45,839 bases of DNA from a virus (IMGVR_UViG_3300012931_000032:1-45839), one strand, 5' to 3'. Shown: positions 17,561-31,410, counted from the first letter of the stretch. Program-made: numbers and translations. The notes: a model not told the origin generated them from the letters alone.

Positions 17561-18706
17561 GTGCGAACAACCAATAAGCCGGAAATTCTTTTGTCATTCC
17601 TAATTCAGAATGAAGAAAAGGTTTTTTGCTATAAAGAACTATCAACGGTTTTTGCTTGTTCCACATGGACAATAATTCAAACCATAAAAAAGTTAAAGAA
17701 AAAAGGTTTGCTTGTTATTCCAGATAGTCTTGACAATAGAAAAAGGAAACTTATTGTTCCGGAGGAAATTAAAATGGCTCGTTTGCGTAAACGTGAAATC
17801 ATCACTCCAAAAATTGATAGGGAAGAATTAAATTCCAGTTTACGAAGGTCAATGTATCATAAAGACAGAAAAGAAAGAAGTAAGACAGACTATATCCGAA
17901 TAGATAATCCAATTATGGAAATTATCCAATTCTGGAATTCCCATGAATGCCTACAGAAAATCAGGGTTCCGGATGAAAAATTACCAGGAAATATCTATAA
18001 TAACCCAACTCAAACTTTGACTGAGACGGTTTTTACAATTAGGCGTTTATTAAGCGGAAAACTATTAACAGATTGCACAATCAAAGAGATAAGAAGGAAA
18101 AACCGAGAATTTACTGTGGAGGAAGTGAAAGAATCTATCAAGAACTATTTACTGGCTTCTTGTGATACCAACTATGAACCAATTGACAAACAATTCTTAA
18201 CAGTTCCAAGAACTCCCGCCAGATTCATTGAAAATTTCAAGTTTGCTAGAACCAATATGTATAGGAGTTTATTTCTTTACTTTCTGGAAAATCCACCAAA
18301 ACTTACACCGGCTGCCAGAGCCAGAGAACCGATGTCTGTAATTGAAGACGGAAAGGAACGTGAATGGGTTGAGGAAATAACCACATATCTAATTACCATG
18401 TATGAGAAAGCATTTGGGAAAGAGGAAAAACAAGGAATCCTGGAAAATGCTGCAATCAAACTATATGATTTTGCTGAAGAACATGGCGGAGTTTATGTTT
18501 CGCTTGAAAGCGGATTGGAAACATGGCCTTATTGGGTAATTAAGGCATTAGAATGGAAAAAAGAGACAAGCCAAGGCAAATTTAAAGTGAAATCTTGGAC
18601 CTTACTTCAGGATTGGTTCTATCAGGATATATTGATTCCTTATATACATTATATTCAAGCAGACCATACCATTGATTGGCCTGAGACTGAGAATGCATCA
18701 AGTTGA
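17561..18706 (+). CDS. Winged-helix DNA-binding protein, possible replication initiator, 381 aa
   Basis: GTG start with TTGGAG upstream. Residues 5-65 are a winged helix (LLSFLIQNEEKVFCYKELS, WTIIQTIKKLKKKGLLVIP). Residues 75-110 are basic. The rest is helical with no motif that I recognise. Its place directly after the repeat-rich gap and the primase and helicase genes suggests an initiator or helicase-loader role (inference). A transcription regulator is the alternative. A strong terminator follows, so this gene is the end of a transcription unit. Confidence 0.6.
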   Translation: MRTTNKPEILLSFLIQNEEKVFCYKELSTVFACSTWTIIQTIKKLKKKGLLVIPDSLDNRKRKLIVPEEIKMARLRKREIITPKIDREELNSSLRRSMYHKDRKERSKTDYIRIDNPIMEIIQFWNSHECLQKIRVPDEKLPGNIYNNPTQTLTETVFTIRRLLSGKLLTDCTIKEIRRKNREFTVEEVKESIKNYLLASCDTNYEPIDKQFLTVPRTPARFIENFKFARTNMYRSLFLYFLENPPKLTPAARAREPMSVIEDGKEREWVEEITTYLITMYEKAFGKEEKQGILENAAIKLYDFAEEHGGVYVSLESGLETWPYWVIKALEWKKETSQGKFKVKSWTLLQDWFYQDILIPYIHYIQADHTIDWPETENASS

Positions 18707-19321: not shown

Positions 19322-19547
19322 ACTGTTACATAACGGATATGAAAGTGTAACTGAGATGTTAACCAAAATGCATTGGGAAGAAAATTTGACCATAGAAGAA
19401 ATGCACATGAAGCTTGGGGTAAGTCATTCTACTTTGAAGAAGAAAATTAAAGAACTTGATATAAAAATGAAGCCTCCAGGCGGAAAACCTTTCAGTAAAC
19501 AAGGAAAAAAAGGGAGAACAAACCATGTCAGTAATTACTGTTTGTAA
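19302..19547 (+). CDS. Small helix-turn-helix protein, 81 aa
   Basis: ATG after GGGGGAGGAG. Residues 25-55 (LTIEEMHMKLGVSHSTLKKK) form a clear helix-turn-helix, followed by a basic Gly-rich tail (PPGGKPFSKQGKKGR). Probably a DNA-binding regulator for the transcription unit. The C-terminus overlaps the start of queD by 23 bases. Confidence 0.7.
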   Translation: MSIHWDKLLHNGYESVTEMLTKMHWEENLTIEEMHMKLGVSHSTLKKKIKELDIKMKPPGGKPFSKQGKKGRTNHVSNYCL

Positions 19548-19920
19548 AAGATTTACTTTTGGGGCTTCCCATTTTCTTCCAGATTATGATGGTCCTTGCG
19601 CTAACATGCATGGTCATAATTTTGCCTTAGAAATAGAAGTTGGTTTAAAAGCATTGGGATGGGGTCAATCTCGCACAAAGCGTAATATGGTTATAGATTT
19701 TAAAGAATTAAAAAAAATAGTAGAGGCCAATATCATTGATAAAGTGGATCATACTGTGTTGAATGAGGTCTTCCCTGATATGGTTCCTACTGCCGAGAAT
19801 CTTATCTTTCGTTTCTTATCCATCTTAAAAGGAAAATTTCAAAAACACGGTTGTTGGATAATGAGAATGAAATTACATGAAACCGAAAGCTCTTTTGCAG
19901 AATGGAGGGAAATATCATGA
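19525..19920 (+). CDS. queD: QueD, 6-carboxy-tetrahydropterin synthase
   Basis: 131 residues. ASHFLPDYDGPCANMHGHNF supplies the zinc-binding His residues (ASH and HGH) and the catalytic Cys a few residues before HGH. VDHTVLNE carries the conserved Asp-His, and LHETESSFAEW the late Glu of the pterin site. QueD converts dihydroneopterin triphosphate to 6-carboxy-tetrahydropterin, step two of 7-deazaguanine synthesis. QueE follows at 20360 and FolE at 21964, so the first three steps are all encoded within about 3 kb. Confidence 0.9.
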   Translation: MSVITVCKRFTFGASHFLPDYDGPCANMHGHNFALEIEVGLKALGWGQSRTKRNMVIDFKELKKIVEANIIDKVDHTVLNEVFPDMVPTAENLIFRFLSILKGKFQKHGCWIMRMKLHETESSFAEWREIS

Positions 19921-20183
19921 GTAAGGTTCATGAACTTAAAACCGATCCAGAAGTATTTCAGGCAAATCTCGATGGAAGAAAGCCTTATGAAATTCGTTTT
20001 GACGACCGCGGTTACGAGGTTGGGGATATTTTAATTTTACGAGAAACAGAATTTACCGGTGAAGAAATGAATGAGACTGGCAAACCTTTAGTTTATACCG
20101 GTAGAAGAAAAGAATTGGATGTCCGTTATATCCTTCGTGGCCCCATTTATGGTTTGGCAGAAGGATGGGTAATAATGTCTTAA
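19917..20183 (+). CDS. DUF3850 (ASCH/PUA-like) protein
   Basis: 88 residues. VHELKTDPEVFQANLDGRKP, YEIRFDDRGYEVGDILILRE and DVRYILRGPIYGLAEGWVIM match DUF3850, a short ASCH/PUA-like domain common in phages that is expected to bind RNA or modified nucleic acid. It overlaps the queD stop by 4 bases and lies between queD and queE, so a link with the deazaguanine pathway is possible but unproven. Confidence 0.8.
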   Translation: MSKVHELKTDPEVFQANLDGRKPYEIRFDDRGYEVGDILILRETEFTGEEMNETGKPLVYTGRRKELDVRYILRGPIYGLAEGWVIMS

Positions 20184-20198
20184 AGAGAGGGGGAGAAA

Positions 20199-20363
20199 GT
20201 GAGAAGAAAGGCCCTTTATTTCCATGAGACTGACATGTTTAAGAAATGGATGGATAGTAAAGGATATATTTGGCCGTCGAAAATAATCGCTCAAGAGAAC
20301 ATGGTGGCCGAGTTTATGAAGGAAGGGCTTGAGAAGGCGACGATTGAAAAGGAGAAAGTATGA
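20199..20363 (+). CDS. Small protein, 54 aa, GTG start
   Basis: A GTG-initiated frame after AGAGGGGGAG that fills the gap between the DUF3850 gene and queE. It is helical and charged (LYFHETDMFKKWMDSKGY, then FMKEGLEKATIEKEK). Its last codons overlap the queE start by four bases, which supports real translation. Confidence 0.55.
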   Translation: MRRKALYFHETDMFKKWMDSKGYIWPSKIIAQENMVAEFMKEGLEKATIEKEKV

Positions 20364-21097
20364 GACTTGCAGAAATCTTTTTGGGTTTTGATGGTGAAGT
20401 GAATCATTGGGGACAAGGAATACCCTCTGTATTTATTCGATTTGCTGGATGTAATTTATCCTGTTCATACTGTGACACCAAACAATATCAACCCCTCCAA
20501 TCAGGCGAAAGCATTTCTGTTCAAGAGGTCTTCCGTAAGGTAAAATCAATCGAGAAAGCCCATCTTAATGAAGCCAGTTTTAAAAAAGTTACTATTACTG
20601 GCGGTGAACCTTTGCTACAATACTTTAAATTTTGGGAACTGGTAAAGTTACTTGACCAAGATAATTGGCATATTAGTGTTGAAACTAATGGTAGTATGCC
20701 TTTCCTCTCTCCAAATTGTGATTTAAGAGAAGAATCCTTAATTGATTGTTTTATTGTTGACTATAAACTGTCAAGTTCCGGCATGTCAGAACATACGATG
20801 CCATACGATTTTTATGGTTATCTTGGTCATACAGATTTTATAAAGTTTGTCATTTTGAGTAGAGAGGATATAGAAACTGCTATAAAAATCCAAAAAATTA
20901 TCCAAGAAGAAACCGGCTGTGAAGCCACATTTGCCTATTCTCCATGTTGGGATAGATTTGATGTAAAATATTTGGCAGAGGCATTGTTGGAATCTGACGG
21001 AGATATTTTAGGAAATTGTATTATTAATTATCAACTTCATAAGATTTGGGGAGACCCCGAAAAGATAAAAAAAGAAAAAAGTGTAAAATTAATGTGA
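20360..21097 (+). CDS. queE: QueE, 7-carboxy-7-deazaguanine synthase (radical SAM)
   Basis: 245 residues. CNLSCSYC at about residues 31-38 is the CxxxCxxC iron-sulfur motif, followed by the Asp-Thr typical of QueE. TITGGEPLL binds S-adenosylmethionine and SVETNGS is the second SAM motif. QueE contracts 6-carboxy-tetrahydropterin to CDG. The start overlaps the preceding small gene (ATGA). Confidence 0.9.
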   Translation: MRLAEIFLGFDGEVNHWGQGIPSVFIRFAGCNLSCSYCDTKQYQPLQSGESISVQEVFRKVKSIEKAHLNEASFKKVTITGGEPLLQYFKFWELVKLLDQDNWHISVETNGSMPFLSPNCDLREESLIDCFIVDYKLSSSGMSEHTMPYDFYGYLGHTDFIKFVILSREDIETAIKIQKIIQEETGCEATFAYSPCWDRFDVKYLAEALLESDGDILGNCIINYQLHKIWGDPEKIKKEKSVKLM

Positions 21098-21124
21098 TTT
21101 TCTGGATAAAAAACTGTCTCCTGT

Positions 21125-21134
21125 ATCGTATAAT
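21125..21134 (+). promoter_or_regulatory. ATCGTATAAT-box phage promoter, copy 3
   Basis: Identical ATCGTATAAT box in the gap between queE and the Lys-rich gene. An AATGTGATTTT block begins exactly 38 bases before the TATAAT, as it does at the copy at 38440, which hints at a shared upstream element. Confidence 0.75.
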
Positions 21135-21181
21135 GTGATAAGCGAGACATTCGCAGACTCACATTACAAAAGGAGGCTAAC

Positions 21182-21889
21182 ATGACAGAAGAAGAAAAGA
21201 AAGTAGAGGCGGCAATGGGAGAAGGGGCTACTCCAGCTCCCACAGGGACTTCAGTTTCTTGGGATGATTTTCTTGCAGCTTGCAAGGAAATGGGCATTGA
21301 ATTTGTAGAAGGGAAAACCGTTCTACAAATGAAGGAAGACTTCTTGGGTCTTCTGGACAAAATCGCTCCTGATTCTCCAGAAGAGGAAGCTCTTTCTGAA
21401 TTGGTTGTCAATGTCCAGGTAGCTCTGGCGGATGGGGCAGCCATCATCGGTTCTCCGGAGGACAAAGCTCCCGCGGGTAAAGGCAAGAAAAAGAAAGAAA
21501 AGAAAGCGAAGGAGCCCAAACCCAAGAAAGAACCTAAACCCAAGAAAGAGAAGGTCTTGAAACCGAAGTTGGGGGGCATTGGCATGAAGCCGATGTGCAG
21601 ACAACTTTTCGGGGAAAAGACCATGGAGCAGGTAGTGGCAGAGGAAGCCCAAATCAAAGAGAAACTTGCCCAGGTGTATGTCACGGAAAAAGGCAAGACT
21701 CATGAATATGGGCTAGAGAGGGCTGACCGGATTTACTATGACATTTATGTTGAGAAATTCGGTGTATCCCCCACTCCGAAGGCCCCGCCTGTCCCCAAAG
21801 AGAAGAAAGAAAAATCCAAGAAGGAAAAGAAGGAAAAGAAAGAAAAAGCTGCGACTGGCGAGGGGGAAGCTGCTCCTGGTACTGAGTAA
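21182..21889 (+). CDS. Lysine-rich, Ala/Pro-rich protein, 235 aa
   Basis: Two ordered segments (VSWDDFLAACKEMGIEF and MKPMCRQLFGEKTMEQV) are separated and followed by KKEK/PKKE low-complexity tails at about residues 100-125 and 200-225. It has its own promoter, an excellent AAAAGGAGG site and a hairpin after the stop, which suggests an abundant product. Third-codon bases are richer in G and C than in the neighbours. A histone-like or DNA-binding structural role is plausible. No family recognised. Confidence 0.7.
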   Translation: MTEEEKKVEAAMGEGATPAPTGTSVSWDDFLAACKEMGIEFVEGKTVLQMKEDFLGLLDKIAPDSPEEEALSELVVNVQVALADGAAIIGSPEDKAPAGKGKKKKEKKAKEPKPKKEPKPKKEKVLKPKLGGIGMKPMCRQLFGEKTMEQVVAEEAQIKEKLAQVYVTEKGKTHEYGLERADRIYYDIYVEKFGVSPTPKAPPVPKEKKEKSKKEKKEKKEKAATGEGEAAPGTE

Positions 21890-21904
21890 TATTAACCTTC
21901 ACCC

Positions 21905-21942
21905 CTAAGGGTACTTGTCCTATCTCCCACAAGTACCCTTAG
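21905..21942 (+). terminator. Perfect 13 bp hairpin after the Lys-rich gene, probable terminator
   Basis: CTAAGGGTACTTG (21905-21917) is perfectly complementary to CAAGTACCCTTAG (21930-21942), with a 12-base loop. No T-run follows, so it may be an mRNA-stabilising or factor-dependent element rather than an intrinsic terminator. Confidence 0.6.
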
Positions 21943-21963
21943 GATTCCTCCCTGGAGATTTGA

Positions 21964-22536
21964 ATGGATAAAATAATAAGAAGTATGCTTCTCAAACTTA
22001 ATATAGACCCGGAAGATGAAAATTTCAAAGATACTCCAGAACGTGTAGCTAGAGCTTTTCGGGATGAAATCTATATTGGTCTAACCAATATAGAAGAAAA
22101 AATTAATAATCTTTTCCTGAAATCTTTTCCTTCTAAAGGATTCAATTCTGTTGTCTTATTCTCAGAAATAAAAACCTTTTCAATGTGTCCTCATCATCTT
22201 CTCCCAATAGAATATGAAATAGACATAGCCTATCTTCCATCTAAGGCAGATGGAAAGGTAATTGGCCTATCTAAACCAATTAGATTAGCAAAGCTTTTGA
22301 GTTGTCGTCCAGTCCTGCAAGAAACCTTAACTGAAGAAATAGCGAACATCCTTCAGGAAAAACTCAATGCTGAAGGAGTGGCGGTAGTCATTAAAGCCCT
22401 TCACCTCTGTATGAGAATGAGGGGAATAAGAGAAACCACTTCTAAAGTCCTAATGTCAACAATGCTTGGAGCTTTCCGGGACAGTCCATCAGCTAGGCAA
22501 GAATTCTTTGAGCTTCTTGCTCATAGCCGAAGATAA
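21964..22536 (+). CDS. folE: FolE, GTP cyclohydrolase I
   Basis: 190 residues. TPERVARAF near the start, FSMCPHHLLP (about residue 71) with the zinc-binding Cys and His, and LHLCMRMRGI (about residue 147) with the second zinc-binding Cys are the family signature. It makes dihydroneopterin triphosphate from GTP, the first step towards 7-deazaguanine. QueD and QueE are encoded just upstream, so the likely purpose is modified-base synthesis, not folate. Confidence 0.92.
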   Translation: MDKIIRSMLLKLNIDPEDENFKDTPERVARAFRDEIYIGLTNIEEKINNLFLKSFPSKGFNSVVLFSEIKTFSMCPHHLLPIEYEIDIAYLPSKADGKVIGLSKPIRLAKLLSCRPVLQETLTEEIANILQEKLNAEGVAVVIKALHLCMRMRGIRETTSKVLMSTMLGAFRDSPSARQEFFELLAHSRR

Positions 22537-22550
22537 AAGGAGGAAATAAG

Positions 22551-22787
22551 ATGGGAGTATATGATATTTATAGAGAAAAAGATAGTGAATTCAATGTCCA
22601 AATTAAAGTTGGTGAGGTTTGTCTTAATCAATTTCTGGTCGGGGATGAAGTATCTATTCCAGACGGTATTTATTTTGGTAATGAAGGGGCAGTTGTAATT
22701 TATAAAGGAAAATTTGCTGCAATTATTTCACCTAACCAAATTTTTGATAAATGGGGATATCCTTTAACAGTTAGTTTAAAAGGATAG
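22551..22787 (+). CDS. Conserved phage hypothetical protein, 78 aa
   Basis: The sequence style GVYDIYREKDSEFNVQIKVG, GDEVSIPDGIYFGNEGAVVI and DKWGYPL is a small beta-rich protein that I have seen as a common phage type without known function. It starts behind AAAGGAGG just after folE. Confidence 0.7.
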   Translation: MGVYDIYREKDSEFNVQIKVGEVCLNQFLVGDEVSIPDGIYFGNEGAVVIYKGKFAAIISPNQIFDKWGYPLTVSLKG

Positions 22788-22789
22788 TC

Positions 22790-23146
22790 ATGACAGAACC
22801 AATAAAAACCATAATTTTTGTAAAGGCACAATTTGAAGCTATTCATTCTTGGCCTAATTGTCCTCATATTGATGTGGCTTTTTTGTGTTGTCCGCATAGA
22901 CATGTTTTCCATGTTAAATTAAAACTCCATGTTTCCCATGATGACCGTGAGCATGAATTTATTCGAGTTAAGCGTACTTTAGAAGGCCATTTACGTTTTA
23001 ATTATGAAGGTTCCGACCTTGGTTCTAAATCTTGTGAAATGATTGCCAAAGAAATAGGTATTTATTTTAATCAAAATGTTGGAAAAGTACATTCTGTTTC
23101 CGTTTCTGAAGATAACGAAAATGGGGCTGAAGTTTATTATGAATAA
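22790..23146 (+). CDS. QueD/PTPS-fold protein, divergent second copy
   Basis: 118 residues. AQFEAIHSWPNCP is followed by FLCCPHRHVFHVKLKLHV, reproducing the strand with F-x-A-x-H and the later C-x-H-x-H-x-F/Y strand of the 6-pyruvoyl-tetrahydropterin synthase fold. The order of His ligands fits a zinc site. Then HDDREHEFIRVKRTLEGHL and a SCEMIAKEI helix. It differs strongly from the QueD encoded at 19525 and from usual HGH. It lies in the deazaguanine locus and might act on a downstream intermediate. The fold call is by motif; function is inference. Confidence 0.55.
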   Translation: MTEPIKTIIFVKAQFEAIHSWPNCPHIDVAFLCCPHRHVFHVKLKLHVSHDDREHEFIRVKRTLEGHLRFNYEGSDLGSKSCEMIAKEIGIYFNQNVGKVHSVSVSEDNENGAEVYYE

Positions 23147-23163
23147 ATCACGTTTAAAAGGTA

Positions 23164-23376
23164 ATGAAAAACATGTCTTCCGAAACCCCGATAAAAACGG
23201 GAACAAAACAACAGGAGAATAACTGGTTGAAAAGAGTTGCTTTTGCTGCTATTGCTTATGTTGGAAGTCTAGCGGCGGATGATGAGGACAAGAGTGCTAA
23301 ATTGTTGGCAAAACTTATCAAAACCATAATTAATGAAAGACCAAACCTTTCAAAGATGAATAAGGAGAAAATATGA
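23164..23376 (+). CDS. Hypothetical protein, 70 aa
   Basis: An Ala-rich central helix (LKRVAFAAIAYVGSLAADDE) and charged ends. AAAGG lies very close to the ATG; a second ATG three codons on is an alternative start. Coupled to the next gene by an ATGA overlap. No family recognised. Confidence 0.65.
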   Translation: MKNMSSETPIKTGTKQQENNWLKRVAFAAIAYVGSLAADDEDKSAKLLAKLIKTIINERPNLSKMNKEKI

Positions 23377-23567
23377 CCGATACTGGACAAGGTATCTTTT
23401 TGGTTGGAGAAGCTGCTAAAAGTTGGGTTCAACTTGAATGGTTCAAAACATATATTGCCCTTGGCCTAACAACTATTTTTGTTATTATCATGGTTGCATG
23501 GTTCCTTTATAGTTTTGCAGAATTTCAAGGAAAAGAAGAAAGAAAAAAGATGGATGAGAATAAATAA
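23373..23567 (+). CDS. Small membrane protein, 64 aa
   Basis: AAGGAG precedes the ATG. A single membrane helix (YIALGLTTIFVIIMVAWFLYS) with a highly charged cytoplasmic tail (KEERKKMDENK). No family recognised. Confidence 0.7.
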   Translation: MTDTGQGIFLVGEAAKSWVQLEWFKTYIALGLTTIFVIIMVAWFLYSFAEFQGKEERKKMDENK

Positions 23568-24109
23568 TGTATCAAACCATCCTGATTGATCCCCCTTGGC
23601 CTGAATATGGCGGGGGAAGAATAAAAAGGGGAGCAGATAGACATTATCCCCTCATGGAACCTGAAGAGATTTTAGGGGCTATTTATGATTCAGGGGTTTT
23701 TCATCCAGCAGAAAAATGTCATTTGTATTTATGGGTAACAAACAATTATATTCCTGATGGTCTTTTATTAACAAAGATGTTAGGTTTCAAATACATTACA
23801 TTTATTACCTGGGTAAAAGATAAAATGGGATTGGGACAGTATTTTAGAGGACAAACAGAACACATAATTTTTAGTGTCAGAGGAAAACAACCAACTTTAG
23901 TCAATAATCAACCCACTTTCTTTTATGCTAAAAGGAGACTTCATTCAGAAAAGCCTGAAAAGGCAAGAAGAATTATTGAAAAATGCAGCCTTCCCCCAAG
24001 ACTTGAAATGTTTTCCCGCTATAATATCGAAGGCTGGGAAACTTGGGGAAATGAAAAAGATGCAATTGTCAGACCTGCTTGTAAAAAAGCAATTGAACCT
24101 TTCTTTTAA
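23567..24109 (+). CDS. MT-A70 family N6-adenine DNA methyltransferase
   Basis: 180 residues. IDPPWPEYGGG (DPPW at residues 8-11) is the catalytic motif, with HLYLWVTNNY and a late SRYNIEGWETWGNE, as in the MT-A70 (Ime4-like) class found in phages. It would transfer a methyl group from SAM to the N6 of adenine in DNA. No cognate restriction enzyme is visible, so it probably protects phage DNA. It overlaps the upstream stop by one base. Confidence 0.85.
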   Translation: MYQTILIDPPWPEYGGGRIKRGADRHYPLMEPEEILGAIYDSGVFHPAEKCHLYLWVTNNYIPDGLLLTKMLGFKYITFITWVKDKMGLGQYFRGQTEHIIFSVRGKQPTLVNNQPTFFYAKRRLHSEKPEKARRIIEKCSLPPRLEMFSRYNIEGWETWGNEKDAIVRPACKKAIEPFF

Positions 24110-24121
24110 AGGGGTAAAATA

Positions 24122-24379
24122 ATGGTAACATCTTTACTTAAAGATGATAAGACAATCGTTTATTTACGCCCTTTAAAAGTTACAATTTGCAAAGCAAATC
24201 CATTTTGGGAACATGAGGGTTACTACAATTGTCGGAAATGCAATAGGAGAATCTATCGAGGACAACTTTATGGTCGTTCCAGGGATGGGAGAACATTCTG
24301 TCTCAATTGTTGTGAAGGTGTAAGTAGAAAGGAAAGATATGAAAAAGTATCCAGGTCCATTCAAAGTAAAACTTCCTGA
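24122..24379 (+). CDS. Zinc-finger protein, 85 aa
   Basis: CRKCNRRIYRGQ and FCLNCCEGV form a two-knuckle zinc site in the middle of a basic protein. Its C-terminal 41 bases overlap the start of the radical SAM gene. Function unknown. Confidence 0.7.
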   Translation: MVTSLLKDDKTIVYLRPLKVTICKANPFWEHEGYYNCRKCNRRIYRGQLYGRSRDGRTFCLNCCEGVSRKERYEKVSRSIQSKTS

Positions 24380-25259
24380 AATCTATCAGATTGAAGCTTC
24401 AGCCGCCTGTGACCATGATTGTGTCATGTGCCCAAGGGGATATTATCATAGAGAAAACAAACAACCATTCTTTGACCTTGATTTACTCCAATGCATGATT
24501 AGTAGGGGGGATTTGAAGGGTTCTTATTTTGTAGAACTTCAGATGTCTGGAGAACCCTTATTGAATCCTGATATTGCAATTATGATTAATCTCCTCAAAA
24601 ATGAAGGAATGATAGTAGGATTAAGTACCCATGGAGATTTATTTCCAGACCTTCTTGAGGCTTGCCAAAGACTTGATTATATAACCATTTCTGTTGATTC
24701 TATTACCAAAAGAGAGAATATTCGTAAAGGAAGTAAATTTGGGAATCCAATAGAATATCTAGAGAACCTTCGTAATTCACTTTTTTTCTTTATTAACAAA
24801 GGGGTGCCAGTTGATTTGCAATTCATTGAACTTCCAGGATGGGAAGAAGAAAGGAATCTTTTATATAATTTCTTAATTAAGGAATTCGATTCTCCCCATC
24901 TTAAAACTGTCAATATCCGTTCTATTCCTGATTGCTGTATTACTCATCGGACAAGTACAAGATTAAAAAAAGAAGAAGATAAAGGGATTTGCCTTAATCC
25001 ATGGTTGTCGGTTTCTGTTCAATCCAATGGTAATGTCGTTCCTTGTTGCTTTGCATGGGGTGATGACCTTATCTATGGTAATCTTTATGATTCCTCATTG
25101 GAGGAAATCTGGAATAGTCCTAATGTGGAGCAACTACGTCGGAATCATAGTGGCGGCTACATTCATCTTCCTGACCTCTGTATGAAGTGCTATATGAGAA
25201 GTCCTGCTTTGCTACATTGGGAAATTTATCTGGATTCCATTAGAAAAAAGAAGGTGTAA
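24339..25259 (+). CDS. Radical SAM enzyme with SPASM domain
   Basis: 306 residues. CDHDCVMC (residues 24-31) is the CxxxCxxC cluster motif, LQMSGEPLL the SAM-binding GEP motif. The C-terminal third has GICLNPWLSVSVQSNGNVV, then CCFAWGDD, LYDSSLEEIWNS and PDLCMKC, the Cys-rich SPASM domain with auxiliary iron-sulfur clusters. SPASM enzymes modify peptides, proteins or small molecules. A role in base or glycan modification is conceivable given the methylase, glycosyltransferase and deazaguanine genes around it. Substrate unknown. Confidence 0.8.
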   Translation: MKKYPGPFKVKLPEIYQIEASAACDHDCVMCPRGYYHRENKQPFFDLDLLQCMISRGDLKGSYFVELQMSGEPLLNPDIAIMINLLKNEGMIVGLSTHGDLFPDLLEACQRLDYITISVDSITKRENIRKGSKFGNPIEYLENLRNSLFFFINKGVPVDLQFIELPGWEEERNLLYNFLIKEFDSPHLKTVNIRSIPDCCITHRTSTRLKKEEDKGICLNPWLSVSVQSNGNVVPCCFAWGDDLIYGNLYDSSLEEIWNSPNVEQLRRNHSGGYIHLPDLCMKCYMRSPALLHWEIYLDSIRKKKV

Positions 25260-25261
25260 GA

Positions 25262-25645
25262 ATGGGCATAGAAAGACCCCATTGGTGTTTTGGTAACTGT
25301 GAAGTTATTTTTAGCCGATATTCCAAAGAAGGTTTTGATAAAGGAGCAAGTTCATTCTGTTATGGTAAAATGGCTCAAGAGCATAAATTTATAGAGAAAG
25401 AAACCGAACATATCAATAATTTTAGTCATTGTCTTTATACTCCATTGAAAGGGATAATCCGTTTTTTCTTAAATGAGGATGATGCTTATACAGAATTTTT
25501 AGCTGTCTGTGCAGTATTGGATAAATATAAACCTCACATTTGCAAAAATTGTGGTCCTATTCCTTGGAGATATGGACCAATCCATGTTAATACCAAAGGT
25601 GAACCATTTTGTGGAAAATGTTGGATATTCCAATCTCAAAAATAA
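25262..25645 (+). CDS. Cys-rich hypothetical protein, 127 aa
   Basis: Two parts: an N-terminal region with WCFGNCEVIF and a later FCYGKM, and a C-terminal zinc ribbon HICKNCGPIPW followed by FCGKCWIF. It follows the radical SAM gene by two bases. No family recognised. Confidence 0.7.
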   Translation: MGIERPHWCFGNCEVIFSRYSKEGFDKGASSFCYGKMAQEHKFIEKETEHINNFSHCLYTPLKGIIRFFLNEDDAYTEFLAVCAVLDKYKPHICKNCGPIPWRYGPIHVNTKGEPFCGKCWIFQSQK

Positions 25646-25658
25646 AGGGGGACAAGAA

Positions 25659-25898
25659 ATGTTTTCCAATCGTCGAGTTAGGTTAGCTTTAGGGAGAACA
25701 ATCAATCTTGGCAATTTTGAATCAACAAGAGTGGATGTTGAAATCTCCGCTGATGTTGAGGATTCAGCTAACCTCTTAGATGCTCAAGAAGCATTATTTT
25801 CCGTTGTAAAAGAGGAACTTGATAAAAGGGTTGAAGAACTATCTCCTAAACCGAAAAATCTTCCCCGTGGCCGTTTGATAACTGAGGAAGGAGACTGA
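25659..25898 (+). CDS. Conserved phage hypothetical protein, 79 aa
   Basis: The pattern RVRLALGRTINLGNFESTRV followed by a D-V-E strand and an acidic helix is typical of a small phage protein of unknown function. ATG after AAAGGGGGACAAGAA. Ends at the glycosyltransferase start (one-base overlap). Confidence 0.7.
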   Translation: MFSNRRVRLALGRTINLGNFESTRVDVEISADVEDSANLLDAQEALFSVVKEELDKRVEELSPKPKNLPRGRLITEEGD

Positions 25899-26947
25899 TG
25901 CCTAAAATTTGGTGGTTACCTATTGAATCTCTTCCTGAGCGTTATTCAGCACAATGGAATGTTTGGTTCAAGCAGGAGTTTACCCGTCTGGGTATTGACC
26001 ACCAAATGATTTATGGGGATATCCTAACGGATGAAATCCGAGAGGGGTGTTTCCTGGATGTAACAGGTACTAATTACTTCAAAGCCAGTCAACTTCAAAT
26101 GCTCTGCCAATGCTTTGAGGATAAAGAAATTAAAGAAGGGGACATTATTTTCTTTCATGACCTTTGGTTCCCAGGTCTGGAAATGTTGGCTTATATTCGA
26201 GATGCCCTTGGGATTAACTTCAAAATTTATGGTATTCTACATGCCGGAACTTGGGATGAGTGGGATTTTCTTACCCAAAAAGGAATGGGACAGTGGGCAG
26301 AACCATTAGAACATTCATGGTTTAGGATAGTGGATGGGATTTTCGTTGCAACCCATTTTCATAAAAACCTAATTCTTAGAAATCGGCCTATGTCCACTCT
26401 TGATTCTAAAATTCATGTGACTGGACTATCTATCTACCCTGATTTTGTTGACAAAAATGTCCATAAGGAGAATATAATTGTCTTCCCTCATCGTCTTGAT
26501 ATAGAGAAACAGCCTGAAATGTTTGATAAAATGGCAAAAGAATTAAGAAATTGGGACTTTGGTTGGAACATTGTCAAAACTAAAGACCTATGCAAAACCA
26601 AACAAGAATATTATAATCTTCTCAATACGGCAAAAATCTCTGTATCTTGTGCTTTGCAAGAAACTTGGGGAATAGCCATGATTGAGTCCGTAATGTGTGG
26701 TTGTATTCCTATAGTTCCTGACCGATTGAGTTATTATGAACTTTATCCTGGTATTTGTAAATATGATGGTACTTTGCAAGGATTGATAAAAAAGATTCGT
26801 GAGATTACCACTTATTATGAATCAATAGCCAATTCCAAAAATTTTAAGTCCTTGAAATGCTTCTTTACTTCTTTTGGGGGAAAAGCTATTAAAAAGATGG
26901 TTAATATTATGTTGGGAGAGAAATGGAAATTTGCCCATATAAAGTAA
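25898..26947 (+). CDS. GT4-like glycosyltransferase (GT-B fold)
   Basis: 349 residues. The C-terminal domain has IIVFPHRLDIEKQPEMF, a nucleotide-binding strand, and ISVSCALQETWGIAMIESVM with GCIPIVPDRLSYYELYP, the E-x7-E style donor-binding region of retaining GT4 enzymes. The N-terminal domain has the GT-B acceptor Rossmann features (FFHDLWFPG, GILHAGTWDEWDF). It could glycosylate DNA bases, phage proteins or host surface molecules. Its place in the modification region favours DNA, without proof. Confidence 0.75.
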   Translation: MPKIWWLPIESLPERYSAQWNVWFKQEFTRLGIDHQMIYGDILTDEIREGCFLDVTGTNYFKASQLQMLCQCFEDKEIKEGDIIFFHDLWFPGLEMLAYIRDALGINFKIYGILHAGTWDEWDFLTQKGMGQWAEPLEHSWFRIVDGIFVATHFHKNLILRNRPMSTLDSKIHVTGLSIYPDFVDKNVHKENIIVFPHRLDIEKQPEMFDKMAKELRNWDFGWNIVKTKDLCKTKQEYYNLLNTAKISVSCALQETWGIAMIESVMCGCIPIVPDRLSYYELYPGICKYDGTLQGLIKKIREITTYYESIANSKNFKSLKCFFTSFGGKAIKKMVNIMLGEKWKFAHIK

Positions 26948-27150
26948 GTAGTCCTGATAATTTTAAGATTGCATGTACTAAATATTGTCCTTTATGGTTT
27001 GAACATCTTGAAATGTGTTCTCATAAAGCCCAGGCTTTGCTACTTTATGATATACACCACATAGTAGTAAAATTCGGAATTTCAAAAGGGATAATACCAT
27101 CTCCTGAAGAAAAGAAGGAAGAAAAAGAGAATGAGAAAGAAGGTAGTTGA
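26923..27150 (+). CDS. Small Cys-rich protein, 75 aa
   Basis: Starts inside the glycosyltransferase end with GGGAGAG upstream. Four Cys residues in the first 32 positions (ICPYKV, ACTKYCPLWF, MCSH) suggest a metal site. The end is highly charged and overlaps the DnaJ-like gene by 20 bases. No family recognised. Confidence 0.65.
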   Translation: MEICPYKVSSPDNFKIACTKYCPLWFEHLEMCSHKAQALLLYDIHHIVVKFGISKGIIPSPEEKKEEKENEKEGS

Positions 27151-27790
27151 TTTATATGCAATTTTACAGATTCACAAAGATGCTTCTCCAAGGGAGATAA
27201 AAGAGGCATTTCGTAAAGCTGTCAAGAAATGCCATCCTGATAATGGTGGGGATGCTCAAGAATTTCATAGGGTTCAATCCGCTTATGTGATTCTTTCTAA
27301 CCCTGAAAAACGGTCATTTTATAATAAAACCGGTTGTGTCAAGGAGTCTAAAAGTGAAACACATGCCATAGTTGCTAAAATACTCATGGAGATTATTGAC
27401 GGGGTTCTTATTAGTCTTAAACAAGATTTATTTACTGTAAACCTTATTAATTTAATAGTTGAAAAATTGGAGAAAGATGGTCAGGAAATTGAAGATAAAC
27501 GTAAAATAATAAGAAAAAATCTTGGAGTTGTAAATCAATTAAAAAAGAGGACAACCAGAAAGGAAGAAGATTCAAATTATCCACCAGTGATGCTTCAATA
27601 TTTAGAGCAGAAAAAAACAGAATTTCTTGGGGTTTTACGTCAACTAAACCAATCAATGTCATACAATAAAATAGCAATTCTTATGATAAAGGAGTATAAG
27701 TTTGATTATATAAAAATGCAACAGCATCCAATCTATGAATACCATTCTTTTTCTTTTGGAATGGATTCATCCACTACTTCTGGTAATTAA
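27131..27790 (+). CDS. J-domain (DnaJ-like) co-chaperone
   Basis: 219 residues. Residues 6-68 are a J domain (DLYAILQIHKDASPREIKEA) with the essential HPD at residues 35-37 and a DAQEFHRVQSAYVILSN third helix. The remaining 150 residues are helical and lack the Gly/Phe and zinc domains of full DnaJ. It could recruit host DnaK to phage proteins such as replication complexes. Confidence 0.85.
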   Translation: MRKKVVDLYAILQIHKDASPREIKEAFRKAVKKCHPDNGGDAQEFHRVQSAYVILSNPEKRSFYNKTGCVKESKSETHAIVAKILMEIIDGVLISLKQDLFTVNLINLIVEKLEKDGQEIEDKRKIIRKNLGVVNQLKKRTTRKEEDSNYPPVMLQYLEQKKTEFLGVLRQLNQSMSYNKIAILMIKEYKFDYIKMQQHPIYEYHSFSFGMDSSTTSGN

Positions 27791-27835
27791 CATTAATCTT
27801 TAACAAAAGGGGTTGGTCATGAGAATTAATTCAAG

Positions 27836-28264
27836 TTGATTTTCGAGGTACTCCTGCTTTCACTATTAACCCTTAACCCAGCTACTGACATAGACCTCCA
27901 ACCCCGACTGATAAAAGCAGTTACCGCTACTGCTTATTGTTTGCCGGGAAAAATGGCGAACGGTGAGATAACCTCAGAAGCGCATGGAAAGTTAGTAAAA
28001 AGAGGTTATCAAGGCTGCATAGCTTTAAGTCGGAAGCTGGCCAAAGATTTAGGATTGAAGTCTGGAAAAGGCCAATACGATTATGCATTTGGTAGCATAA
28101 TCGTAATTGATGGCGTGGGAAAATTTGTTTTCAAAGACCTGATGCCGAAAAAGTGGGACTATCACGACAATGGTTATCGTGTTGATATTTGGTTTCCCAC
28201 TTTGAAAGGATGCAGGGTCTTCGGTGTAAAAAGATGCAATGTTAGGGTAGAAAAGGAAAATTAA
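27836..28264 (+). CDS. Exported 3D-domain (double-psi beta-barrel) protein, start uncertain
   Basis: 142 residues from a TTG. A hydrophobic N-terminus (FEVLLLSLLTLNPA) looks like a signal peptide. The rest has KAVTATAYC, IALSRKLAKDLGLKSG, YDYAFGSIIVIDG and FVFKDLMPKKWDYHDNG followed by VDIWFPT, the pattern of the 3D/RlpA-like barrel with its conserved Asp residues, found in peptidoglycan lytic enzymes. A better ribosome site (AAAAGGGG) and an ATG lie at 27819 in another frame that stops after six codons. A -1 shift there would give MRINSK fused to the signal sequence. Likely acts on cell wall. Confidence 0.7.
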   Translation: MIFEVLLLSLLTLNPATDIDLQPRLIKAVTATAYCLPGKMANGEITSEAHGKLVKRGYQGCIALSRKLAKDLGLKSGKGQYDYAFGSIIVIDGVGKFVFKDLMPKKWDYHDNGYRVDIWFPTLKGCRVFGVKRCNVRVEKEN

Positions 28265-29211
28265 TGGCAAGGTTAAAATCTCGCAAGCCTCAGGAGATAG
28301 AGTGTTTTCTCGATTCTGGGGCGCATGGATTATATAATAAATTCATACGGTTAGCTTCTAATATTCGAGATTACAATATTACCACCACCTCAGAATTTAA
28401 AGAATACCTTGATTCGTATGCAAAATATTTAAAAGGGTTTGGACACCAATTTTCTACTTATGTTAATTTAGATGTAATCTTTAATCCTGCAAAAACTTGG
28501 GAAATGCAGAAATATCTTGAGAATGAGCATGGCCTAAAGCCCTTGCCAGTATTCCATTTCGGAGAAAATATAAATTGGCTTTACAAATACATGGATAATT
28601 ATGACTATCTTGGGATAGGTGGTCTTGGGCAAGAAGTCCCCAAGACAAAATTCATCCATTATGCTGATAGAATCTTTAAAGATATTTGTGATAAAAATGG
28701 TTTCCCTAAAGTGAAAATTCATGGTTTTGCCATGACCAGTATTGATTTGATTCTTAGGTATCCTTGGTTCTCCGTTGATTCCTCTTCATGGTTAGTAAGT
28801 GAAAGATATGCTTTAATGATAGTCCCTCGAATGAGAAACGGACAATTCTTTTATGGCATTCCACCGGAAATGATTTCCGTTAGTATGCGCCACAGTAAAA
28901 CTAAAAACCATATGAGTCATTTTTCGCCTATGGTTCAAAAAGCAATCCATCAATTCGCTGAAGAAGTTGGCGGATTCAAATACGGAAAATCAGAATTTTA
29001 TACAATGGCGGACGACCATAAAATTAATTTCAAAAACCAAGAATATTGGGCGAATAAAGAGGATAGATTAGTAGAGAAAATAATTGAACCAGGTTTTGGT
29101 AATAGTATGCAAATCCGCAATACCATCAATACTTATTATTTTAAGAAACTGGAAGAATTTGTCTTGCTTCATCCGAGACAATTCAGGCCAGAAATGAGGA
29201 GGATAATTTAA
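28264..29211 (+). CDS. dpdA: DpdA, TGT-like 7-deazapurine-in-DNA transglycosylase
   Basis: 315 residues. ECFLDSGAHGLYNKF, a YVNLDVIFNPAKTWEMQKYL segment, PLPVFHFGEN, YDYLGIGGLGQ, VKIHGFAMTS and YPWFSVDSSSW occur in the order seen in phage and bacterial DpdA proteins, relatives of tRNA-guanine transglycosylase with a TIM barrel. The Asp residues of LDSGA and VNLDVI fit the TGT-type active site. DpdA exchanges guanine in DNA for a 7-deazaguanine. FolE, QueD and QueE upstream supply the base. It starts at the overlap with the 3D-domain gene. Confidence 0.82.
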   Translation: MARLKSRKPQEIECFLDSGAHGLYNKFIRLASNIRDYNITTTSEFKEYLDSYAKYLKGFGHQFSTYVNLDVIFNPAKTWEMQKYLENEHGLKPLPVFHFGENINWLYKYMDNYDYLGIGGLGQEVPKTKFIHYADRIFKDICDKNGFPKVKIHGFAMTSIDLILRYPWFSVDSSSWLVSERYALMIVPRMRNGQFFYGIPPEMISVSMRHSKTKNHMSHFSPMVQKAIHQFAEEVGGFKYGKSEFYTMADDHKINFKNQEYWANKEDRLVEKIIEPGFGNSMQIRNTINTYYFKKLEEFVLLHPRQFRPEMRRII

Positions 29212-29845: not shown

Positions 29846-30071
29846 TTTAAGAACATTATTTATGGATTGTTTTGGTCTTGTGGATAGGTTGAGCCACTAC
29901 AATCGTACCAAAACCAATCCAATTTGTCCTTTCTGTGGAGCAGATTTTAATAATAATGACAATTTCCAACATGATGATGATTGTTTAGTTATTGAGGCCA
30001 TCCGTCTTTTTAGCCATATGAAAGAATATCTGACAAATAATCCTGCAACCGATGAGGAGGAAGAATCATGA
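29835..30071 (+). CDS. Small zinc-knuckle protein, 78 aa
   Basis: CPFCGADFNN followed by HDDDC forms a CCHC-type metal site in the middle. Acidic tail (TDEEEES) overlaps the next gene by four bases. Strong AAAGGAG upstream. No family recognised. Confidence 0.7.
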   Translation: MMPDLRTLFMDCFGLVDRLSHYNRTKTNPICPFCGADFNNNDNFQHDDDCLVIEAIRLFSHMKEYLTNNPATDEEEES

Positions 30072-30736
30072 ATATTTGTAAATCAATCTTGGATGCAGGG
30101 GTGTTAGAAATCAGGGATTTGGATGCCGGACAAGAACCTTTCCTATATAGTTCAGGGAATTGGGGTCCTGGGTATGTCATGATAAAAGGTTTGGTATCAA
30201 AACGTTCATTACTTGTTTCATTATGTAAAGAGTTATCCAATAAAATTATGAAGTTGACAAGTCCAGATTTAGTAGCAGGTAATGTTACTGGGGGAATGAT
30301 ACCTGGATGGCTCATCAGCACTTATTTATTTATCCCATTTGTATATGTCCGAGATACTCGAAAAAAGGGCGGACATAGAGAGCAGGTAACTGGTCTTAGC
30401 AAGGAATTAACTGGTTCTTGTTTAATAGTAGAGGAATTGGTTAATTTTGCTCAGACTACAATTAATAGTGCGGAAGTTCTCCGTAATCTTGGATTTGAAG
30501 TACCTTATGCTGCTACCATTCTTTCGTATGAGAATCCCAGAGCTATTAAATCCTTAGAAATTTTTAATTTAAACCTAATTTCCTTAATAACCCTTCCTGA
30601 ACTACTTAATGAAGCTGAGATAAGTGGGAAGTTCTCAAAGAAGGCTATAAGGGATTATCGTATGTTTTTATTAAATCCCATTGATTGGCAAAGGGATAAA
30701 GGATTGGAGCCGGTGCCAAACGGAGGAACCAAATGA
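30068..30736 (+). CDS. pyrE: Orotate phosphoribosyltransferase-like protein (PyrE-like), altered PRPP motif
   Basis: 222 residues. FLYSSGNWGPGYVMIKGLVS matches the N-terminal substrate region of PyrE, VAGNVTGGMIPGWLIS the early PRPP-fold strand, and VYVRDTRKKGGHREQVTG the flexible lysine-rich loop. The PRPP-binding motif, usually V-E-D-V-x-T-T-G, reads LIVEELVNFAQTTINSAE, so the second acidic residue is Glu and the TTG is not kept. The substrate may be orotate or another base. The next gene is PyrF-like and overlaps by 4 bases. Confidence 0.75.
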   Translation: MNICKSILDAGVLEIRDLDAGQEPFLYSSGNWGPGYVMIKGLVSKRSLLVSLCKELSNKIMKLTSPDLVAGNVTGGMIPGWLISTYLFIPFVYVRDTRKKGGHREQVTGLSKELTGSCLIVEELVNFAQTTINSAEVLRNLGFEVPYAATILSYENPRAIKSLEIFNLNLISLITLPELLNEAEISGKFSKKAIRDYRMFLLNPIDWQRDKGLEPVPNGGTK

Positions 30737-31410
30737 AACCGATGATAATGATTGCTTTAGATAATGACCCATTTTACTTTGTGGAAATTCTTGGCCGGTC
30801 GCTTACTAATATTGGTTTTAAAATCAATCTTGATTATATTTTGAAGGTTGGGATTAAACAGGCTAGTCGCTTAAAGGATTTTGGGAAACCTTTATTTGCT
30901 GATTTAAAAATGTGGAATGGAAAAAGAACAATGATGTCTATCCTTGAACAGTTGGGTGATGCTGGGTTTGAATATGCCAATGTTCATATTTTGGCTGGGC
31001 CAGAAATTCCTAAGATGAACTTTGTATATAAACAGAGGAATGACAGTTTAAAACTTCTCGGAGTAGCTTTACTTACTCATTATAATGAAAATTATGGAAT
31101 AGAATTTTTTGACCGAGATACCTCTATTGAAATAGTAGATTTAATTGAAAAAGGTAATAAAATGCCTTTAGATGGTATTGTTGCCGGAGCAAATTATATG
31201 CCTTATGTTTCAAATGAGAAAATAAAAGTTACTCCAGGAATTCGTCCTTCTTGGTATGAAGATAAAAGGCATTCTAATGCAGTAACTCCAAAAAAGGCAC
31301 TCGATTTAGGTTCAGATATTCTTGTGATTGGTTCTCCAATTACCAAAAATAAGAATCCACTTGAAGCTTTAAATAAAATCTGGGAGGAAATCAATGAAAC
31401 AGACAGTTAA
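30733..31410 (+). CDS. pyrF: OMP decarboxylase-like protein (PyrF-like) with Asp-to-Asn change in the active site
   Basis: 225 residues, about the size of bacterial PyrF. IALDND (Asp10), LKVGI (Lys38), FADLKMWNGKRT (Asp57, Lys59, Asn62), and VTPGIRPSWYEDKRHSNAVT with IGSPITK near the end follow the family order. The catalytic D-x-K-x-x-D tetrad residue usually contributed by the neighbouring subunit is Asn62 here. Either activity is reduced or the reaction differs. It is coupled to the PyrE-like gene. Confidence 0.75.
   Translation: MKPMIMIALDNDPFYFVEILGRSLTNIGFKINLDYILKVGIKQASRLKDFGKPLFADLKMWNGKRTMMSILEQLGDAGFEYANVHILAGPEIPKMNFVYKQRNDSLKLLGVALLTHYNENYGIEFFDRDTSIEIVDLIEKGNKMPLDGIVAGANYMPYVSNEKIKVTPGIRPSWYEDKRHSNAVTPKKALDLGSDILVIGSPITKNKNPLEALNKIWEEINETDS

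Follow-up and report, generated by a model that had tools for sequence, protein, structure and literature searches.

We describe a phage locus for 7-deazaguanine DNA modification in which the enzymes for 7-carboxy-7-deazaguanine (CDG) and the DNA transglycosylase DpdA are accompanied not by QueC, but by a QueD-fold protein of family PHROG 17812 and a glycosyltransferase (GT). The locus lies in IMGVR_UViG_3300012931_000032:1-45839, a 45.8-kb virus record that is a genome fragment (GC content 0.366) and is hereafter called the window. The evidence that the locus belongs to a deazaguanine pathway is strong, and from it we infer a CDG-derived, probably sugar-bearing 7-deazaguanine as the DNA base. 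We slightly favour the complete scheme, wherein CDG is processed by the QueD-fold protein, inserted by DpdA and glycosylated. The points that count for it are the CDG enzyme and DpdA families, the mutual exclusion with QueC, the linkage of the GT, the gene order, the association with four transglycosylase types, the protein folds, the loss of a catalytic cysteine and the presence of sugar-nucleotide-type genes in T4-like relatives.

A sequence-only reading of the window had recognized a phage DNA-modification locus of this kind from its CDG enzyme and DpdA families, and had reported FolE, QueD, QueE and DpdA to be present and QueC not to be seen. Family matches, together with searches of the window and of a close relative, confirm this description. 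The QueD, QueE, FolE, 17812, radical SAM, GT and DpdA genes of the window are all on the plus strand. QueD (6-carboxytetrahydropterin synthase, 19525..19920) matches PF01242 (1.8e-28) and carries the catalytic Cys and the HGH zinc, DH and PTAEN motifs, with a TIGR03367 score of 84.5 bits that is slightly below the cut-off of 89.25. QueE (7-carboxy-7-deazaguanine synthase, a radical S-adenosylmethionine (SAM) enzyme, 20360..21097) matches phrog_2076 (1.6e-30) and TIGR03963 (4.3e-37) and has CxxxCxxC and GGEP motifs, and FolE (GTP cyclohydrolase I, 21964..22536) matches PF01227 (8.1e-51). These three matches are firm, the usual catalytic motifs are kept, and the identities of the CDG enzymes and of DpdA are established by family and active-site residues. 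Pathway enzymes of phage 9g complement Escherichia coli mutants (PMC6884629).

The predicted DpdA (DNA guanine transglycosylase, 28264..29211) has no Pfam match, tRNA guanine transglycosylase (TGT) included, and PDB sequence searches with it returned nothing useful. It matches phrog_887 (1.8e-38), tblastn finds relatives in 233 phage records, and the sequence can be aligned with DpdA of phages 9g and CAjan. The invariant residues D17, D70, H153 and D172 correspond in the alignment to D72, D114, H196 and D215 of 9g DpdA, where H196 is the conserved DpdA histidine (PMC6884629). The subfamily question raised by the sequence-only reading is thus answered by the phrog_887 match and the alignment: the protein is a 9g-type DpdA, of a sequence family distinct from tRNA TGT, and by homology it is predicted to act on DNA.

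Given that the window is a fragment, the absence of QueC from it alone proves little. The sequence-only reading had asked for a wider search, and neither QueC nor QueF was found in the window or in IMGVR_UViG_3300038679_000131 (G001), the one close relative found, where QueC was sought at E ≤ 10. This 98.8-kb record shares its gene order with almost all of the window (DpdA 73% and QueD 62% identical), and it is probably complete, since its ends overlap by an exact 28 bp and terminase, portal and major head genes are present. We also compared 22 phage records, of which 13 carry 17812 and nine are DpdA phages without it. All 22 have QueE, and a normal QueD is found in 12 of the 13 carriers. Full-length QueC occurs in none of these 13, with partial matches located far from the cluster in D479 and, below threshold, in X1; it is present in eight of the nine remaining phages, the ninth, Hilltopfarm, lacking both QueC and 17812. 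Weak QueF matches in 17812 phages fell mostly on FolE genes, none at cut-off, and were discarded.

The same exclusion is evident among 268 loci fetched as best matches (near duplicates included, flanks of up to 10 kb, genes called by hidden Markov models at E ≤ 1e-4). These include, from IMG/VR, the best 80 loci for 17812, the best 80 for the GT and 79 centred on DpdA. QueC is found in none of the 17812 or GT loci and in 39 of the 79 DpdA-centred loci, never beside 17812 (p=3e-5; this and the other Fisher tests on loci are uncorrected for shared ancestry). Over all 268 loci, none combines the two genes, 193 have 17812 only, 39 have QueC only and 36 have neither. This mutual exclusion indicates that the missing QueC is a property of the pathway rather than an effect of contig edges or of the host. 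Judged from the window, G001, the phage records and the fetched loci, the locus lacks the QueC or Gat-QueC of a preQ0-type pathway.

The protein proposed to stand in for QueC is encoded at 22790..23146 and matches phrog_17812 (1.5e-23), a family annotated as ‘unknown function’ that is represented in at least 592 viral loci. Its relatives in GenBank phages are located in or close to the FolE/QueD/QueE cluster. The AlphaFold2 model, made with 56 sequences, has a predicted local distance difference test score (pLDDT) of 96.6, and Foldseek matches it to E. coli QueD (4ntk; TM-score 0.82, 22% identity) and to other enzymes with the 6-pyruvoyl tetrahydropterin synthase fold. Across all 56 family sequences that we examined for conservation, residues H19, L32, H36, H38, F40, R53, S81, C82, E83, E107 and D108 are invariant. 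By alignment, H19, H36 and H38 are zinc ligands and E107 is the pterin/purine-anchoring Glu. Thus, the T-fold, the three zinc histidines and the anchor Glu of QueD are retained, but the position of the QueD catalytic Cys is occupied by Leu32 in 56 of 56 sequences and the Asp-His pair of QueD is missing from the alignment; the protein is therefore not a QueD. The zinc site and ring-binding Glu fit an enzyme that would process CDG. Separately, the BFVD entry A0A6J5LEZ6 is a predicted viral protein that combines the 17812 fold with an ‘Alcohol dehydrogenase, N-terminal’ region, and it may hint at the chemistry.

The second unexpected component, at 25898..26947, is predicted to adopt a GT-B fold (AlphaFold2 pLDDT 95.6) and gives Foldseek matches to BshA, MshA and glycogen synthase at approximately 1e-10. 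This fold and a conserved E255-x7-E263 motif place it among GT4-type enzymes. Strong relatives are encoded beside or near 17812 in phages PA5oct, ACP17, X1, Phosso and BUCT-ZZ01, and within the 22 records the GT is confined to 17812 carriers, seven of the 13 having it. The cultured phages phiST and MA9V-3 have 17812 without it. In IMG/VR, the GT is present in 54 of the 80 17812 loci, 17812 is present in 70 of the 80 GT loci, and the four-way GT-17812 counts in DpdA-centred loci are 14/0/1/64 (p=1.2e-14). Only one of 39 QueC-containing DpdA loci has the GT. From this linkage and the fold, we infer that the enzyme transfers a sugar, putatively to the deazaguanine base. A resemblance to the queuosine-tRNA mannosyltransferase, suggested by motifs, was dropped because Pfam and PDB gave it no backing more specific than generic GT1/GT4. 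A literature search that did not reach the key papers found no text linking such a GT to deazaguanine DNA modification, and its link to a QueC-free deazaguanine pathway is probably, though not certainly, new.

Two further observations concern the surroundings of the GT. In T4-like 17812 loci (L039, L064, L071, L076, L279 and L280), genes for a nucleoside diphosphate-sugar epimerase, a cytidylyltransferase or a phosphoribosyltransferase are often found nearby. On bacterial contigs from Magnetospirillum (L288, L291, L292 and L293) and Aurantimonas (L285), the GT and 17812 occur with a transglycosylase of the c11 type described below, and in Magnetospirillum with QueD too. No clear phage genes were seen among the open reading frames viewed on these contigs, and the cluster is possibly a bacterial DNA-modification island.

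The association of 17812 with transglycosylases extends beyond DpdA. Other 17812 phages encode different proteins with TGT-like motifs, namely p10773 (DSGGLQ...YDSTTH), p20335 (DNGA...STDS) and c11 (GDSGGFQ), which on the strength of motifs and context we read as DpdA-type transglycosylases. None of the four types is a tRNA TGT by the Pfam cut-off, the nearest approach being one c11 member with a weak match (0.026). Of the 35 17812 loci that span 15 kb or more, 34 carry one of the four types. The 17812-GT pair occurs with three types (DpdA1, p10773 and c11), whereas loci with p20335 (phiST-type) have the GT in 0 of 20 cases compared with 54 of 60 for the other types (p=6.5e-14). A tree built from 130 DpdA proteins places the window inside a 46-row clade (Shimodaira–Hasegawa-like approximate likelihood ratio test 98) with 39 rows carrying 17812 and none carrying QueC. 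Over the whole tree the 17812 label needs 11 changes, compared with 43 in shuffles, and the starred branches force at least seven. Further occurrences of 17812 are found in parts of the tree outside this clade, and therefore its association with DpdA arose or was exchanged several times. The c11 family itself is an unannotated group of approximately 514 residues with a DSGGFQ motif (L176 4396-5940, L018 3227-4849 and some 50 further loci in IMG/VR), and it looks like a DNA transglycosylase of T4-like phages.

A typical DpdA1 locus is arranged on one strand in the order QueD-QueE-FolE-17812-(radical SAM)-GT-DpdA. The optional partner in the window, a radical SAM/SPASM enzyme (24339..25259; PF13186 2e-15, PF04055 6.9e-11), belongs to one of two such families. 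Of the 72 loci that combine DpdA1, 17812 and the GT, 45 have a member of one or the other, compared with 0 of 39 QueC-containing DpdA loci. The enzyme set given by the sequence-only reading was correct as far as it went, but it missed the QueD-fold protein, the GT and the less constant radical SAM enzyme. That reading’s proposal of CDG or a CDG derivative as the base is probably right, and with these additional conserved enzymes, a base that is processed beyond CDG and possibly glycosylated is likelier than plain CDG.

On this basis we envisage a pathway in which, as homology predicts, FolE, QueD and QueE would convert GTP to CDG. The 22790 protein, acting in the stead of QueC, would bind the deazaguanine ring at its zinc site and process the 7-position, possibly by decarboxylation, such that preQ0 would never be formed. 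DpdA, again by homology, would exchange guanine in the phage DNA for the CDG-derived base. The GT4 enzyme, in many relatives together with the radical SAM enzyme, may attach a sugar to the 7-position or close to it, either prior to insertion or afterwards. The acceptor, the sugar and the order of these steps are conjectural. The resulting bulky, hypermodified 7-deazaguanine could shield the DNA from host nucleases.

Several points weigh against this scheme. Its chemistry is a prediction, and a plain decarboxylation of CDG by the 22790 protein would leave no obvious hydroxyl for the GT4 enzyme. The GT is missing from six of the 13 17812 phage records and 26 of the 80 IMG/VR 17812 loci, and most T4-like loci lack the radical SAM enzyme. 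Conversely, loci L137, L139, L144, L145 and L146 have the GT and DpdA with no 17812 detected, and L262 has the GT together with QueC. The selection of loci as best matches, duplicates among them, should also temper the counts. Alternatively, the DNA base could be plain dDG or dCDG, with the 22790 protein serving as a CDG decarboxylase (DpdL) and the GT modifying a different base, a protein or the surface of the cell. Work by Cui in 2023 reportedly detected dDG as well as dCDG in the DNA of phages and predicted the decarboxylase; we take the 22790 protein to be a candidate for DpdL. Moreover, the 20 phiST-type loci show that 17812 can work without the GT. However, this explanation does not readily account for the tight two-way linkage that ties the GT to 17812 and DpdA in same-strand clusters, seen in phages of unrelated lineages as well as on bacterial contigs, or for the near absence of the GT from DpdA loci that have QueC, and we consider it rather unlikely.

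We are far more doubtful of two other explanations. If QueC were encoded in an unseen part of the genome or supplied by the host, as the sequence-only reading allowed, the base would be dPreQ0 or a preQ0 derivative. The window is indeed a fragment, and host genes can feed DpdA, as when, in E. coli, the 9g enzyme inserts preQ0 made by the host (PMC6884629). Yet QueC was found neither in syntenic G001 nor in any fetched 17812 locus, despite its frequency among DpdA-centred loci, and this explanation would leave the presence of the 22790 protein unaccounted for; we therefore regard it as very improbable. Even less credible is a role in queuosine-type modification of host tRNA or in folate metabolism. 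FolE is common to folate synthesis and DpdA is a TGT relative, but the transglycosylase in the window belongs to the DpdA family and has the DpdA histidine, and the other types found with 17812 are likewise not tRNA TGTs by the Pfam measure.

Other genes in and around the locus were considered as pathway parts and set aside. The genes for MT-A70 (23567), DnaJ (27131), the 27836 protein and 29211 (DUF7694) are not conserved in related loci, and PyrE/PyrF (30068-31410) are not conserved in related 17812, GT or DpdA loci. The MT-A70-type adenine methyltransferase (23567-24109) inside the locus may represent a second DNA modification. The adjoining PyrE-like (orotate phosphoribosyltransferase) and PyrF-like (orotidine monophosphate decarboxylase) genes follow DpdA and are absent from G001 and the other related loci. 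In G001, the DnaB-like helicase (L005 5584-8334; 916 residues versus 506 in the window) and the clamp loader (L004 5821-7809; 662 versus 322) each have a large in-frame insertion, and these are probably inteins.

Deazaguanine DNA bases made without QueC are already known in outline, reportedly through the dCDG/dDG phages. These are reported to resemble the window in making CDG without QueC and inserting it by DpdA; the window adds the GT and the radical SAM partner. Mycobacterium phage Bipper (PMC6884629) and the Hilltopfarm type (L025) likewise have DpdA, FolE, QueD and QueE with no QueC, but Hilltopfarm lacks both 17812 and the GT. Hilltopfarm has an unassigned gene of 141 residues between DpdA and QueD, and is another QueC-free type. 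The dPreQ0/dG+ pathway of CAjan, 9g and Rosebush (PMC6884629) shares FolE, QueD, QueE and a phrog_887 DpdA with the window, which differs in lacking QueC or Gat-QueC and in having the QueD-fold protein, the GT and, as relatives often do, the radical SAM enzyme. The glucosylated hydroxymethylcytosine of T4 offers an analogy, as a GT-B enzyme glycosylates a modified DNA base. However, the T4 base is a pyrimidine whose modified nucleotide is put in by the polymerase, whereas the window would place a deazaguanine by transglycosylase-mediated base exchange.

More broadly, the window may represent a widespread phage branch with glycosylated 7-deazaguanine, spanning three transglycosylase types and some bacterial chromosomes (Magnetospirillum). 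In this branch, the 22790 protein would either make the acceptor or decarboxylate CDG for C-glycosylation, and the GT4 enzyme would add the sugar, giving what would be the first sugar-bearing deazaguanine known in DNA. We advance this proposal tentatively, judging it to fall a little short of probable. If it is true, phages would possess an additional way of making deazaguanine DNA bases, next to preQ0/G+ and plain CDG/dDG, in which a sugar shields the DNA much as it does in T4, here carried by a purine. The large unannotated family 17812 would gain a likely function, and the DNA base of cultured phages such as Acidovorax phage ACP17, Pseudomonas phage PA5oct and Synechococcus phage BUCT-ZZ01 would be directly testable.

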